A stretch of DNA of 64,000 nt from contig NZ_MDSK01000030.1 of assembly GCF_002940205.1 (NCBI RefSeq), forward strand, positions 1-64,000. Direction: 5' to 3'. A program made the position numbers and the translations under genes. This DNA comes from Xanthomonas arboricola pv. guizotiae. GTDB taxonomy: Bacteria > Pseudomonadota > Gammaproteobacteria > Xanthomonadales > Xanthomonadaceae. The notes beneath the pieces were generated by a model. The model ran no database searches. It was not told the origin of the DNA and saw nothing but the letters and a program-made list of their open reading frames with translations. This document shows positions 48,798 to 60,316 of the stretch, one piece after another. Every line of letters starts with the position of its first letter. The first letter of the stretch is position 1.

Positions 48798-49469
48798 TCA
48801 GTTCAGAGCAAAGTTGACCGGGACGCGGACACGTCCGGCGGCTTTCTGCCCGTTGACGGTGGAGGCGTTGAACTTCCACTTGCGTGCTGCGTCCATCGCG
48901 GCACGGTCAAGGTCGCGGTTGCGGCTGGACTTTTCGACCGACACATTGGTCACGTTGCCGTTGGCATCCACATCCACGATCAGGATGACCTCACCTTGGA
49001 CACCGGCCCGGAATGCAGCCGGCGGGTACTTCGGCGGGTTCATGTTCTTGGACGAGATATCGACACTTGCGCCAATGTCACTTGGCGGCTGCGGCGGAGC
49101 CGGTGGGCTCGGCGGCGTGACGATATCGCTCGGACGCGGTTCGGGAACGTCGACCACCGGAGCTTCCGGCGGCGGCGGAACCGGTGACGGCTTCGGCGGC
49201 GACAGATTCTTGACCGGCGGCGGCGGCTTGTCTTCCGGCGGCGGCGGCGGCGGCGGCGGCGGGGGAGGCGGCGGTGCATCCACCAGGGTGACCATGGTGG
49301 TGCGCTCCTTCTCTGCCGGAGCCTTCGGCGCCACTGCAGGGATCAGCAACATCATCAGTGCAGTGAGGTGCAAGGCAATTACAAAAGCAATACCGATAAT
49401 GCGGGCCCAGCTCAGACCCTGGTTCCCGGCATCATAGTCATGCCTGTGGATAACGAGTTGTTCCGTCAT
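48798..49469 (-). CDS. tonB: TonB energy transducer
   Basis: A 223-residue TonB. The N-terminal cytoplasmic tail and single helix (IGIAFVIALHLTALMMLLIP), preceded by arginine, anchor it. A proline-rich periplasmic spacer (residues about 60-125, mostly Pro, Lys, Glu) spans the periplasm. The C-terminal domain (PPKYPPAAFRAGVQGEVILI ... RKWKFNASTVNGQKAAGRVR) binds the TonB box of outer-membrane receptors. The spacer's uninterrupted run of at least ten prolines is extreme. Family members power uptake of iron, vitamins and plant carbohydrates, numerous in Xanthomonas. Confidence 0.93.
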   Translation of the reverse strand: MTEQLVIHRHDYDAGNQGLSWARIIGIAFVIALHLTALMMLLIPAVAPKAPAEKERTTMVTLVDAPPPPPPPPPPPPPEDKPPPPVKNLSPPKPSPVPPPPEAPVVDVPEPRPSDIVTPPSPPAPPQPPSDIGASVDISSKNMNPPKYPPAAFRAGVQGEVILIVDVDANGNVTNVSVEKSSRNRDLDRAAMDAARKWKFNASTVNGQKAAGRVRVPVNFALN

Positions 49470-55303: not shown

Positions 55304-56410
55304 TTACGCGGGGGGTGTCAACACGGCCACTTCGCCGTGTTCCACGTGGAACCGATGCAATAGCTTGCCGGATTCGGCCAGGCCGGGCGGCATTTCGGTT
55401 GCGGTGATCAGTACCTGCGCCGGTGCGGACGCCAGGCGCTGCAGCACGCGAGCCTGGTGGTGGCGGTCCAGCTCCGAGCCCAGGTCGTCCAGGGCGATCA
55501 CCGGCCATTCGCCGCGCTCGTGGGCAAAGTCTTCGGCCTGTGCCAGCAGGCAGGCGAGGGCGGTGAGCTTTGCCTGGCCGCGGGAGAGCGCATCCTTGCC
55601 CGGCAATGCATCGAAGGCTGGCGCCCAATCGGCCCGGTGCGGCCCTTGCGAGGTGTAGCCGTTCTGACGATCACGCTCGCGGGCCAGTAGCAGCGCGTCG
55701 GCCAACGACACCTCATGGCGCTTCCAGCCCGGTGCGAACGTCAGCGCGGACAGCCCGAGCGACGGGGCGATCGCGGTTGCGACCGGAATCAATCGCTCCT
55801 GCAGGCGTTCCAGATAGCGAAGGCGACGCGATGTCAGCGTTTCGCCGGATTCGGCGAGTTCGTGATCCCAGGCATCGAGCATGCGCGGCTGTGCGCCCTG
55901 CTTGAGCAAGGCGTTGCGCTGTTTGAGCGCTCGCGCATAGCGCCGCCAAAGCGTCAGAAAATCAGGTTCCACGTGGAACAGCCCCCAATCGAGGAAGCGC
56001 CGCCGCGGCTCACCGCCGCCGCTGATCAACACATGGCTGCCGGGCTCGAAGGTCACGACAGCCAGCGCGGCACACAAGGCGCCCAGCTGGGCAACATCTT
56101 CGCCATCCAGCCGGCCGGTCCACTCCTGGCCGCTGTGGCGTAGGCCCGCCCGCCGCGTGCGTTCCTCCACCGCAGCGGTTCCTTCGCGCCACTCCACGAA
56201 GACTTCCAGATCGCCGGCGCCTTGCTGGATCAGCCCGTCGCGCACACGGCCACGAAAACTGCGGCCATAGGCCATCAGATGCAATGCTTCCAGCACGCTG
56301 GTCTTGCCCGCGCCGTTATCGCCGGTCAGCAGGTTCAAGGAACTGGCAGGGTGGAGGTCGACGGTCTCGAAACGACGAAGTCGATGGATGGACAACCGCA
56401 CTACGTGCAT
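55304..56410 (-). CDS. recF: RecF recombination mediator
   Basis: A 368-residue ABC-type SMC-like ATPase that loads RecA at single-strand gaps. Walker A is in [20 protein letters not shown] (about residues 28-47), the signature in [20 protein letters not shown], and Walker B in [20 protein letters not shown]. Length matches the family. Two perfect parS palindromes lie inside the reading frame, at 55339-55352 and 55966-55979, coding for FHVEHG and FHVEPD segments. Confidence 0.96.
55339..55352. other. parS site 1 (within recF)
   Basis: GTTCCACGTGGAAC, a perfect 14-bp palindrome in the context TGTTCCACGTGGAACC, identical to parS sites of Pseudomonas and close to the TGTTTCACGTGAAACA consensus. 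ParB is expected to load here to organise the origin. Confidence 0.85.
55966..55979. other. parS site 2 (within recF)
   Basis: A second perfect GTTCCACGTGGAAC, in the context GGTTCCACGTGGAACA, 627 bases from the first. Confidence 0.85.
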
Positions 56411-57440
56411 CGATCGGTCTGCTCTGCGCTGTGATCCGGCATCCCGGTCGGAGCGGAGGATACGTGATCGATGTGGATCCTGCCCGTGCAGACGTGAAGC
56501 GACCTGCGGGACAGACAGGGGGCAACCTGTGGATAAAAACCAGGGCTGAGCAACGTCTCCCGCTTATCCACAGGGTATCGCCCCCTCCGCAGGGGTCTAA
56601 ACACAGGGTTTCGCGACCTAAAAGTCATTTAAAAACAAACACATAGGGTAGTTTCTGGCCAAATCTGGGCCTACCATCACCACCAAGCTCTTAAATTATT
56701 TATAGATTTAAAAGCAAAGCTCGATGTGCATAAGTCAAAAACGAGGGGAGAACGCTCACATCAGACATCGCTGTGCGTGCTGGTCCGGATCGACCACTTG
56801 GCTTTTGATGAACTGGTTCAGGCTAACTCCAGTAAGGGTAACTTCCCCCGGACGACAAAACCGCAGCGCGCATGACTGCCGAATCTCACTAAGGCTGCGA
56901 CAAAGCCAGCTTTGCCAATATCGGTTGGTGGCATGAGGAGAAGTACGTTGTTCCACGTGCACTCCGTGGACCTGCCAACAGAGTCTTCGTAACTCGACAG
57001 GTCCCGGGTGGGTTACCTGCTTGCGCGGAGCACGCCGATCTCACGTGGCACATTCCCTAGGCGAGACAGCTCGCTGATCCTTTGGGATGCCTCCAATCAA
57101 AAATGAGCCAAGCAACCATGCCGGCGACAGCAGCGGACCAGGCTCATGCCCCTTTTTGATAACGCCCGGCTCCGAACTCAGGCACGTCAATCCAAGCAAA
57201 CCAACCAATGCGCCTGTCCGGTCGTTGAAGTCTGGCTACCCGGGAGTGGCGTCTATCCAACCGGCCTTGGCTTGGTGACCGTGCGGCGCTGCCACTCCAA
57301 GGATCATGCCTCAAGGCAGGGCAGCTCCAGCTAAGGCACCAAGCCGTTTCGGCACCTGATACCAGCGCAAAAGCGGATGCCCAAAGACGCTCAAGCGTCC
57401 CAAAGCCTCACATCGCAGCGGACTCAGCGCTCTCGACCGT
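56411..57440. other. Gene-free kilobase between recF and dnaN
   Basis: No gene is supportable in either strand. Frames are short and carry no family signature, and base composition is markedly less GC-rich than around it. It contains an origin-like element at 56528-56715 and a degenerate parS half-site (TTGTTCCACGTGC, around 56949-56961). The rest, 56720-57440, shows nothing I can name. Confidence 0.6.
56528..56715 (+). other. Origin-like element, copy 1 (recF-dnaN gap)
   Basis: Two perfect DnaA boxes, TGTGGATAA at 56528-56536 and TTATCCACA at 56564-56572, start 36 bases apart. They are followed by AAACAAACA, then CTACCATCACCACCAAGCT at 56671-56689, then the AT-rich TTAAATTATTTATAGATTTA. The order and spacing match the dnaA-dnaN gap (copy 2) in the opposite orientation. 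It could be part of oriC or a relic. Confidence 0.7.
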
Positions 57441-57472
57441 CAAAACGAAGAGCCCGGCTTTCGCCGGGCTCT
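57441..57472 (-). terminator. Terminator of dnaN
   Basis: AGAGCCCGGC-GAAA-GCCGGGCTCT forms a 10-bp stem read on the minus strand, followed by TCGTTTTG. It lies 24 bases beyond the dnaN stop codon. Confidence 0.8.
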
Positions 57473-57476
57473 CCGT

Positions 57477-57490
57477 GTTCCACGTGGAAC
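57477..57490. other. parS site 3 (next to dnaN stop)
   Basis: Third perfect GTTCCACGTGGAAC, in the context TGTTCCACGTGGAACG. It sits between the dnaN stop codon and its terminator, 1.5 kb from site 2. Confidence 0.85.
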
Positions 57491-57496
57491 GTGGCG

Positions 57497-58597
57497 TCAG
57501 AGCCGCAGCGGCATCACCACGTGGCGGGACTTCTCGCTGCTGGCCTCGCGCACCAGCGCCGACGAGTTCGCATCGCGCAGCTGGATGACCACGTGCTCGT
57601 CGCGCAGTGCAGACAGCGCGTCCAGCAGGTAGTTGACGTTGAAGCCGATGGCCAGATCGTCGACCTTGGTGTCGGCCTCGATTTCTTCCTGCGCTTCTTC
57701 CTGCTCCGGATTGTGCGCGCTGATCTTCAGCTGACCCGGCGAGACTTCCACCCGCACGCCGCGGTACTTCTCGTTGGACAGGATCGCCGCACGTTGCAAG
57801 GATGCGCGCAGTGCTTCACGGTCCACCTTGACCTCGCGATCGGCGCCGATCGGAATCACCGCCTCGTAATCCGGGAAGCGGCCGTCGATCAGCTTGGAGG
57901 TGAAGGTGACATCGCCACGCTTGACGCGGATATGGCTGCGACCGACTTCCAGCTCCACTTCGCGATCTGCAGCTTCCAGCAGGCGCAGCAGCTCGGTTAC
58001 GCCCTTGCGCGGCACGATGATCTGGCGCTTGGCACCGCCGGATTTCTCCAGCTCGGTCTCGCACAGCGCCAGACGGTGGCCATCGGTGGCTACGCAGCGC
58101 AGCAAGCCTTCGCGCAGGTCGAACAGCAAGCCGTTGAGGTAGTAGCGCACGTCCTGCTGGGCCATGGCGAACGCAGTGCGCTCGATCAGCTCCTTCAACG
58201 CCGCTTCCGGCACCGCAACGCGCTCGGTGGCTTCGACTTCATCCACCGACGGGAAATCGTTGGCCGGCAGCGTGGCCAGGGTGAAGCGGCTACGCCCGGC
58301 CTGCACCGTGACCTTGTCGCCGGTCTGCGAGATGGTGACGCGGCTGCCGTCGGGCAGGGCACGCAGGATGTCGAACAACTTGCGCGCCGGGATCGTGGTT
58401 TCGCCGTCCTGCGCGTCTTCCACCATCGTGCGCGAGATCATTTCCACTTCCAGGTCGGTACCGGTAAACGAGACCTGTCCGTCCTTGACCTGCACCAGCA
58501 GATTGGCGAGAACCGGCAGGGTTTGACGGCGTTCGACCACATTGACCACCTGAGCCAATGGTTTGAGGAAGGCTTCGCGCTGCAGTGTAAAACGCAT
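57497..58597 (-). CDS. dnaN: DNA polymerase III beta sliding clamp
   Basis: A 366-residue clamp subunit that tethers polymerase III to DNA. It starts MRFTLQREAFLKPLAQVVNV and shows three repeated clamp domains. The C-terminal stretch ALVREASSEKSRHVVMPLRL is the typical end of the family and forms the partner-binding pocket. It lies 277 bases from dnaA across an origin-like region. It has its own terminator, so recF is not co-transcribed by simple read-through. Confidence 0.97.
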   Translation of the reverse strand: MRFTLQREAFLKPLAQVVNVVERRQTLPVLANLLVQVKDGQVSFTGTDLEVEMISRTMVEDAQDGETTIPARKLFDILRALPDGSRVTISQTGDKVTVQAGRSRFTLATLPANDFPSVDEVEATERVAVPEAALKELIERTAFAMAQQDVRYYLNGLLFDLREGLLRCVATDGHRLALCETELEKSGGAKRQIIVPRKGVTELLRLLEAADREVELEVGRSHIRVKRGDVTFTSKLIDGRFPDYEAVIPIGADREVKVDREALRASLQRAAILSNEKYRGVRVEVSPGQLKISAHNPEQEEAQEEIEADTKVDDLAIGFNVNYLLDALSALRDEHVVIQLRDANSSALVREASSEKSRHVVMPLRL

Positions 58598-58611
58598 GTG
58601 GTTCCGTGCCC

Positions 58612-58805
58612 CTATGCTTTAAAAGATAATGGAATAAATCAAAAGCTTGGTGGTGATGGTAGGGCCGTTTTCAGCGGATAACCACCATAACTGTTTGTTT
58701 CCAAAGAAAAATTGGCGCCTGAAAGTCGTTGGACTAGTACCCCTGGTCTAACGGTAAAACCTGTGGATAGTTTTCCGCCCGACCCGCGAGGCAACGTTAT
58801 CCACA
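58612..58805 (-). other. Origin region, copy 2 (dnaA-dnaN gap)
   Basis: Read on the minus strand: DnaA boxes TGTGGATAA (58805-58797, perfect) and CTATCCACA (58770-58762, one mismatch), whose outer ends lie 35 bases apart. Then come AAACAAACA, CTACCATCACCACCAAGCT (58662-58644) and the AT-rich run with TTTGATTTATTCCATTATCTTTT. This is the position where Xanthomonas genomes usually place oriC. The 19-base block is an exact inverse copy of 56671-56689. Confidence 0.75.
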
Positions 58806-58874
58806 GATTCTCCCGCATTTGACCCCAACGTTTCCACGCTTTTCTCCAAGCGGGCCGTCAAGACCGTTGCCGGC

Positions 58875-60203
58875 TTACTCGCTGAGCTTGCGAATCAGCT
58901 TTTCCCAGTCCTCGCGCAGCTTGCCGTCGGCCTCCATCAGCGTGCGGATCTGCCGGCAGGCATGCAGCACGGTGGTGTGGTCGCGGCCGGCGAAGGCGTC
59001 GCCGATCTCCGGCAGGCTGTGTTCGGTCAGCTCCTTGGCCAGCGCCATCGCCACCTGGCGCGGACGCGCCAGCGAGCGGGTGCGCCGCTTGGAGAGCAGA
59101 TCCTTCATCTGCAGGCCGTAGTAGTCCGCCACGGTCTTCTGGATGTTGGGGATGCCGATCGCCTGCTGCTGGGCGCGTAACAGGTCGCGCAGCGTCTCCT
59201 GGGCGAATTCCACCGTGATCGAGCGGCCGGTGAAGTTGGCGCGTGCCACCAGCGTGTTGAGCGCCCCTTCCAGGTCGCGCACGTTGGAGCGCATCTTCTT
59301 GGCGATCAAAAACGCCACGTCGTCCGGAATCTCGGCGCCGCGCTCGCGCGCCTTGGCCAGCACGATCGCCGCACGGGTTTCGAAATCGGGCGGGTCGATC
59401 GCCACCGACAGGCCCCAGGCCAGGCGCGACTTCAGCCGCGGCTCCAGGCCTTCGACCTCACGCGGGTAGCGGTCGCAGGTCAGGATGATCTGCTGGCGGC
59501 CATCGAACAGCGCGTTGAAGGTGTGGAAGAACTCTTCCTGCGTGCGGTCCTTGCCGGCGAAGAACTGGATGTCGTCGATCAGCAGCGCATCGATCTGCTG
59601 GAACTGGCGTTTGAACTGGTCCATCGCCTTGTCCTGCAACGCCCGGATCATCGCGCTGAAGAACTGTTCCGAGCGCAGATACATCACCTTGGCGGCCGGA
59701 TTGGCCTGGCGCAGCGCATTGCCGGCGGCAAACATCAGGTGGGTCTTGCCCAGGCCGGTGCTGCCGTACAGCAGCAGCGGGTTGTGCGCGCGGTCGCCAG
59801 GCTTCTGCGCGGCCTGGACCGCGGCGGCCAGACCGAGCTGATTGCTGCGGCCCTCGACGAAGTTGGCGAATGTGTAATGCGAATCCAGATTGCCGGCGAA
59901 CGGCACGATCGGCGCCGCGACCGGCGCGCTGGGCGCGGCCATCGGTGCCGGCTGCGGTTCCGGCGCACGTGGGCGCGAGCCGACCGCCAGCGCCACTTCG
60001 CCGTTGCCGACGAAATACGCCACCAGTTCGCGGATGCGCGGCAGGTAGCGCTCGCGGACCTGGTCGACGATGAAGGCATTCGGCGCATACAGCACGATGC
60101 TGTCGCCGCGGTCTTCGGCTTGCAGGGGTTTCAACCAGGTGTGGACGTCCTCGGGCGGGAATTCGGCTTCGAGACGTTCCAGGCAGCGGGGCCAAGCATC
60201 CAT
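58875..60203 (-). CDS. dnaA: Chromosomal replication initiator DnaA
   Basis: A 442-residue initiator. Domain I is [20 protein letters not shown], domain II a Pro/Ala-rich linker ([20 protein letters not shown]). Domain III is AAA+, with Walker A ([19 protein letters not shown]), Walker B ([20 protein letters not shown]) and the arginine finger region. Domain IV has the DNA-binding signature ([20 protein letters not shown]). The ATG at 60203 is chosen; the preceding codon is TTG. DnaA-box-like sequences upstream, near 60317 and 60329, suggest autoregulation. Confidence 0.98.
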
Positions 60204-60316
60204 CAAAGTATGATCATCTGTTGCTGGCTGCGGCGCGCAGAAAAGCGCCGTGCTCGCAGCCCGGTAGTGAAAAGAGGATGCGCCAGACTAGCACCGAGGG
60301 CAGGGTTTTCCCAGAC

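Follow-up and report, generated by a model that had tools for sequence, protein, structure and literature searches.

An inverted duplicate of the oriC module flanking dnaN in Xanthomonas and related genera, a putative second unwinding site

On sequence comparison, the gap between recF and dnaN in Xanthomonas arboricola carries an inverted, near full-length (~184 bp) copy of the oriC module that lies in the dnaA-dnaN gap. We suggest, with moderate confidence, that this element is an old inverted duplicate of oriC which has been kept as a second DnaA-dependent unwinding module, and that the two modules form a composite origin. Comparison across the family establishes that the copies are homologous, of common origin, conserved in geometry and under constraint.

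The window, by which we mean the whole 64-kb stretch of DNA analysed, carries dnaA (58875..60206), dnaN (57497..58597) and recF (55304..56410) on its minus strand; dnaA and recF were named from their sequences, and relatives were found for each of the three genes. A gyrB gene, identified by sequence, is also on the minus strand. The dnaA-dnaN gap (58598-58874) is 277 bp long and the recF-dnaN gap (56411-57496) 1086 bp, so dnaN is located between the two modules, both of which point at it with their AT-rich ends. About 700 bp (window 56740-57440), with a mean identity of 0.25 across the Xanthomonas genus, separate the dnaN end from the second module. The recF-dnaN gap is long in the genera that carry the copy and in some others, and is 58-150 bp in many. 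Parts of the locus carry parS-like palindromes (GTTCCACGTGGAAC): one just after dnaN (57476-57491), which is invariant across 12 loci of the Xanthomonas genus and agrees with the site published for X. citri (PMC3937727), and two within recF (~55338-55353 and ~55965-55980).

The second module extends over 56517..56700 on the plus strand (nhmmer 69.7 bits, E 6e-20, model positions 5-189 of 192; E 1.3e-24 with a whole-genome, sequence-only model). Its first DnaA box is an exact match on the minus strand at 56528..56536 (TTATCCACA, reading TGTGGATAA on the plus strand), and its second an exact TTATCCACA on the plus strand at 56564..56572. The position of the IHF-like site (56633..56645, plus strand, 41 nt ahead of the first CCA triplet) holds the degenerate sequence AAACAAACACATA; it begins with AAACAAACA (56633-56641), which we take to be the left half of such a site. 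The 19-base block CTACCATCACCACCAAGCT follows at 56671..56689 on the plus strand, where sequence matching and column counts resolve the DnaA-trio-like triplets CTA CCA TCA CCA CCA, and it runs into a candidate AT-rich unwinding element (56688..56727, plus strand), the least stable 40-mer in the 64-kb window (z 4.72). Past this AT run there is a DnaA-box-like TTATGCACA(TC), whose TTATGCACA occupies 56725..56733 on the minus strand and is invariant in the 12 genus loci; the primary module of the window has no such box.

The primary module is located at 58631..58819 on the minus strand (nhmmer 124.1 bits, E 1.3e-36, positions 2-191). Its DnaA box 1 is an exact match at 58797..58805 on the plus strand, and its box 2 (CTATCCACA; 58762..58770, minus strand) has one mismatch. 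The family alignment places the IHF-like site AAACAAACAGTTA at offset -41 (58688..58700, minus strand, with AAACAAACA at 58700-58692) and a weak DnaA box, TTATCCGCT, at offset -22 (58673..58681, minus strand), 10 nt ahead of the triplets. The block itself (58644..58662, minus strand) is a 19-mer identical to that of the second module, and the candidate AT-rich unwinding element (58612..58651, minus strand) ranks second in instability among the 40-mers of the window (z 4.41). The IHF and weak-box positions are degenerate in the second copy of the window, which scores 69.7 bits versus 124.1 for the primary.

The original prediction had proposed that the two gaps carry the same elements in opposite orientation, and matching with no or one mismatch located every one of them where it had been placed. 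The boxes, predicted to be about 35 bases apart, are separated by 36 in the recF-dnaN gap and 35 in the dnaA-dnaN gap, and the distances from the second box to the 19-mer are 107 and 108, respectively, as had been claimed. The similarity is not confined to the 19-mer, which in the alignment of family modules corresponds to the trinucleotide block plus the beginning of the AT run: blastn of one gap against the other gave a match of 69 bp with 78% identity (E=3e-10), and the local alignment of the gaps spans box 2 to beyond the AT run. The 19-mer occurs twice in the window with up to three mismatches, against 0.01 occurrences expected, and a search of the whole 4.93-Mb assembly allowing up to one mismatch found it at these two sites alone. 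The best of 2000 shuffled recF-dnaN gaps scored 7.6 bits versus the 69.7 observed. Chance similarity was thus ruled out by the rarity of the 19-mer, the profile E-value and the shuffled-gap scores.

The presence of the second copy in relatives, which the original prediction had made a point to check, was examined across the family. A DnaN match was obtained in 192 of the 198 genomes of the family. From the matches listed we took 80 regions, which belong to 79 genomes of many genera, so that with the window 80 genomes were compared. A profile trained on 54 modules solely from genera lacking the copy was then run on all regions. It matched the recF-dnaN gap of 22 genomes, that is, in every genome (22/22) of five genera, with E-values of 5.6e-14 to 1.8e-33: the Xanthomonas genus (9/9, one carrier being split across two contigs, L009 and L010), g29, a Stenotrophomonas genus (8/8), g44 (3/3), g43 (1/1) and g53 (1/1). 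The matches are inverted and mostly near end to end, the shortest (L027) covering positions 9-169 of 192. No match in this gap was obtained up to E=10 for the remaining 58 of the 80 genomes, and the copy is absent from the X. albilineans-type genus g7 (8/8 genomes) and from g2.

Among 80 named loci, none of them titled Xylella, a set which overlaps with that of the 80 genomes (for example, L087/L005, L089/L020, L098/L015 and L091/L172 each look like one genome), the copy was found in 17: six Xanthomonas (arboricola, nasturtii, sp. LMG 31884, prunicola, axonopodis and phaseoli) and all 11 titled Stenotrophomonas. In the profile search it was missing from X. albilineans (L101), from a distant MAG titled Xanthomonas (L150), and from all other records, with titles such as Pseudoxanthomonas, Lysobacter, Luteimonas, Thermomonas, Arenimonas, Silanimonas, Dyella and others, although absence says little for L157, L158 and L161, where the primary module was missed as well, and for L148, where recF was not reached.

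A whole-genome model built from the sequences of 48 modules was scanned over the 198 family genomes and returned two matches in 26, one in 159 and none in 13. The 26 comprise the 22 carriers and four genomes (G105, G133, G169 and G185) with other duplications. In an order-wide sample of 200 genomes, 47 had a match; two matches were found in 15, exclusively in g1 and g29, and 11 genomes outside the family gave a single weak match each. Other arrangements were also observed. In genus g4, three of eight genomes (L166, L167 and L168) have two complete tandem modules on the same strand, ~340 bp apart, in the dnaA-dnaN gap. G105 has, besides the module in the dnaA-dnaN gap, an extra one (L165:4868-5056) ~400 bp short of the end of its chromosome record; on a circular record this would probably put it immediately upstream of dnaA. 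These two further kinds of duplication suggest that extra modules arise repeatedly in the family.

Based on the alignment of 76 modules, the module has a common plan: paired DnaA boxes, an IHF-like site, a weak DnaA box, a 10-nt spacer, NCA triplets and an AT run. The alignment begins with GGGACAAG-TGTGGATAA, TTATCCACA-GCTTGTCCC, a third, weak box and the IHF-like site, and ends with a fourth weak box, a short spacer, CCANCACCACCA and then GCTTTTGATTTATT; L063, L069, L074 and L079 were left out for want of a strict box pair. The length of the dnaA-dnaN gap ranges from 216 to 1192 bp across the 80 regions, and the geometry of the modules is as follows, the 151 primary modules, which the profile located in these regions and the named loci, and the 38 second modules including repeats. 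In the primary modules, box 1 lies 143-144 nt ahead of the block in 118 and box 2 107-108 nt ahead in 114, with the boxes 35-36 nt apart in 140. In the second modules, box 2 is 107-108 nt from the block in 30, and the box pair is 46-47 nt apart in five. Both boxes have at most one mismatch in 127 primary and 35 second modules.

The fixed letters of the block columns CCA NCA CCA CCA are kept in 125-150 of the 151 primary modules and 28-38 of the 38 second ones, and an extra leading NYA triplet is present in 86 and 27, respectively; the triplet block is altered in the copies of g44, g43 and g53. An IHF-like site with at most one mismatch was found in 104 of the primary and 16 of the second modules (shuffled modules, 1/151 and 0/38), its commonest offset being -41 (108/151 and 23/38). 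The weak box at -22, which leaves 10 nt to the leading triplet, is present in 104 primary and 20 second modules, mostly with two to three mismatches.

When set against the elements by which origins are recognised, each module has a DnaA-box cluster of two boxes, a small number that is usual in the family, and the two AT runs, which rank first and second for low stability among the 40-mers of the window, agree with AT-rich unwinding elements. The locus has two separated DnaA-box clusters, as expected of a bipartite oriC, and the independently trained profile together with the grouping of 37 of the 38 second copies in one clade indicates the common descent expected of a duplicated oriC. The series of at least three 3'-NAN-5' trios that belongs to a basal unwinding system (BUS) was not found in the block, since four of its five triplets are centred on C, with G on the opposite strand. 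The NCA triplets are possibly a deviant, GC-rich candidate form of the DnaA-trio and could work like one.

A module tree was built from 38 second and 49 primary modules (80 different rows among 87, the copy on L010 being omitted). Thirty-seven second copies form one clade (99/85); that of g53 is outside, but a topology joining all 38 was not rejected (AU p 0.489). Because the second copies form their own clade, the two modules of a genome do not appear to homogenise, and the copies are best read as one old duplication which has not been homogenised later. Recent duplication or gene conversion had been considered as the source of the exact 19-mer and was rejected, as the second copies are a clade of their own and the remaining sequence is diverged; the shared 19-mer would thus reflect parallel conservation of both modules.

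In the three-gene tree, the carriers fall into one group of 36 rows together with the non-carriers g7 (with X. albilineans) and g2; the tree is a quick one with long-branch warnings, and is compatible with either loss or later gain of the copy. L009 counts as copy-less there only because its contig ends, the copy being on L010 of the same assembly.

The mean pairwise identity in the Xanthomonas genus (12 loci) is 0.75 for the element and 0.25 for its dnaN-side flank, and the corresponding values in g29 (12 loci) are 0.75 and 0.28. Beyond the end of dnaN, the most conserved 60-mer in both genera comprises the triplet block and the AT run. The second module spans 181-188 bp in all but one of 28 loci (L027, 171), and its distances to the neighbouring genes vary across genera, from 78 to 937 bp to dnaN and from 88 to 507 bp to recF (236-507 in g29). 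Inside the Xanthomonas genus, all 13 loci have the element 103-108 bp from recF, a constant distance, and the last ~100 bp ahead of recF are also conserved (0.70-0.94). Maintenance of the duplicate by selection is well supported by the alignments in several genera. The original prediction of an old duplication kept by selection thus holds up, given the copies in five genera, their grouping in the tree and the identities of element and flank. It had attributed the selection to the boxes; selection as such is supported, but it falls on the whole module and is strongest at the trinucleotide block and the AT run.

In the composite origin that we favour, two head-to-head modules with their AT-rich ends pointing at dnaN would make up the origin of the clade. 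DnaA would bind the paired boxes of a module, IHF would bend its DNA, and a DnaA oligomer may start at the weak box, extend over the NCA triplets and melt the adjoining AT run; the helicase could then be loaded at either module, or at both joined by DnaA. The main module is probably that in the dnaA-dnaN gap, with the second as an accessory or backup. Since selection is hardest on the unwinding end, the second copy is likely to melt DNA and not only to bind DnaA, and because relatives keep the copy, the origin may have two melting sites. The earlier proposal of a bipartite origin in which either copy serves as the unwinding site is thus partly supported, being compatible with the anatomy of the locus. 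Its absence from the X. albilineans-type genus indicates that the second copy is dispensable there.

Several observations count against a composite origin: the absence of the copy in sister genera, its constant distance to recF within the Xanthomonas genus, the altered triplets in some copies, the degenerate IHF and weak-box positions and the lower score of the second copy of the window, triplets without the base that DnaA-trios require, and the box pairs 46-47 nt apart in 5 of 38. In addition, the dnaA-dnaN gap of X. campestris alone was reportedly sufficient for autonomous replication in the work of Yen et al. in 2002, who are said to have described only this gap as the origin. The skew at four-fold sites in dnaA, dnaN and recF had mixed signs between groups and is uninformative on the replication start, and the GC skew profiles are too coarse for a distance of 2 kb. 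A lone exact DnaA box is present on the minus strand at window 49445-49453, 7 kb away from the second module.

The second module might instead be the accessory half of a bipartite origin, at which bound DnaA would loop to the first module, with dnaN looped out, and help it melt while the second module itself never opens. Both of its boxes have at most one mismatch in 35 of the 38 second copies, and in Helicobacter pylori two origin parts work by DnaA-mediated looping between box clusters with one melting site (PMC5043019, PMC7561715). We nevertheless regard this as unlikely, because the most conserved 60-mer consists of the triplets and the AT run and not of the boxes, and this unwinding end, which a pure binding partner would not need, has the lowest stability in the window. 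The relic alternative, in which the copy is a functionless remnant of duplication or a chance resemblance, would fit the sister genera without it and the profile score below that of the primary. We find it hardly credible, since the flank is far less conserved than the element (0.25 vs 0.75 in one genus and 0.28 vs 0.75 in another), and its chance part is ruled out by the 19-mer count, the profile and the shuffles.

DnaA boxes can also regulate genes, and the element could be a regulatory site, either a DnaA titration or reactivation locus or one through which DnaA controls recF transcription. Control of recF can be entertained because the element is upstream of recF, always at a distance of 103-108 bp (13/13 loci) in the Xanthomonas genus, where the sequence ahead of recF is conserved as well. 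However, the distance to recF ranges from 88 to 507 bp across genera while the module length is constant, which disfavours a recF-linked element across genera, and the copy retains the complete order of oriC elements; a regulatory role seems quite unlikely to us. It is very doubtful, too, that the modules are separate strand-specific helicase-loading sites, one per fork, or alternating natural origins. If strand-specific loading were true, bidirectional replication would begin at two melted sites on either side of dnaN. The loading of two helicases at an origin is still called unclear (PMC10201434), and a single origin per chromosome has been called the bacterial norm (PMC4403523). A natural, long-conserved pair of complete modules separated by ~2 kb, which Xanthomonas and Stenotrophomonas have and sister genera lack, makes origin number and helicase loading testable by deletion. 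The module alignment also provides a candidate for a GC-rich DnaA-trio and an origin plan for the whole family.

According to a paper that cites the original work, the X. campestris origin has three conserved DnaA boxes in the dnaA-dnaN gap (PMC8453159). Like that origin, the primary module of the window has its DnaA boxes in the dnaA-dnaN gap. The taxon motif ATCACCACCACCA reported by gammaBOriS as typical of Xanthomonadaceae oriC, and annotated there as a DnaA box, is the same trinucleotide block as described here, and section 8 of that paper makes no mention of a second copy (PMC7174414). No mention of a module in the recF-dnaN gap was found in the open-access literature searched.

The BUS is described as a DnaA box no more than 16 bp from the trios, a spacer with a peak at 10-13 bp, and DnaA-trios of the pattern 3'-NAN-5', with deviant trios without that A being thought possible (PMC8287927). 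Many of the family modules resemble it in their order of a candidate weak box, a 10-nt spacer, a block with a period of three and an AT run. They differ in that most triplets are 5'-NCA, which gives 3'-NGT-5' on the other strand and not 3'-NAN-5'. The trio of C. difficile oriC2, which is located in the dnaA-dnaN gap, is CACCTACTACTATTACTACTATGA (PMC7561715), and it resembles the block here if T to C changes are allowed.

The putative double origins in DoriC (Gao 2015; PMC4403523) share the idea of two origins per bacterial chromosome. The four cases listed there concern other organisms, one of them with a second dnaA gene and the rest with a second site distant from dnaA. The parts of the bipartite oriC of H. 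pylori, Bacillus subtilis and C. difficile usually flank dnaA and have a single DUE (PMC5043019, PMC7561715). The locus studied here is similar in having two DnaA-box clusters around a replication gene and a melting site in the dnaA-dnaN gap. However, its modules lie on either side of dnaN and are inverted duplicates of each other, each with boxes, triplets and an AT run of its own.
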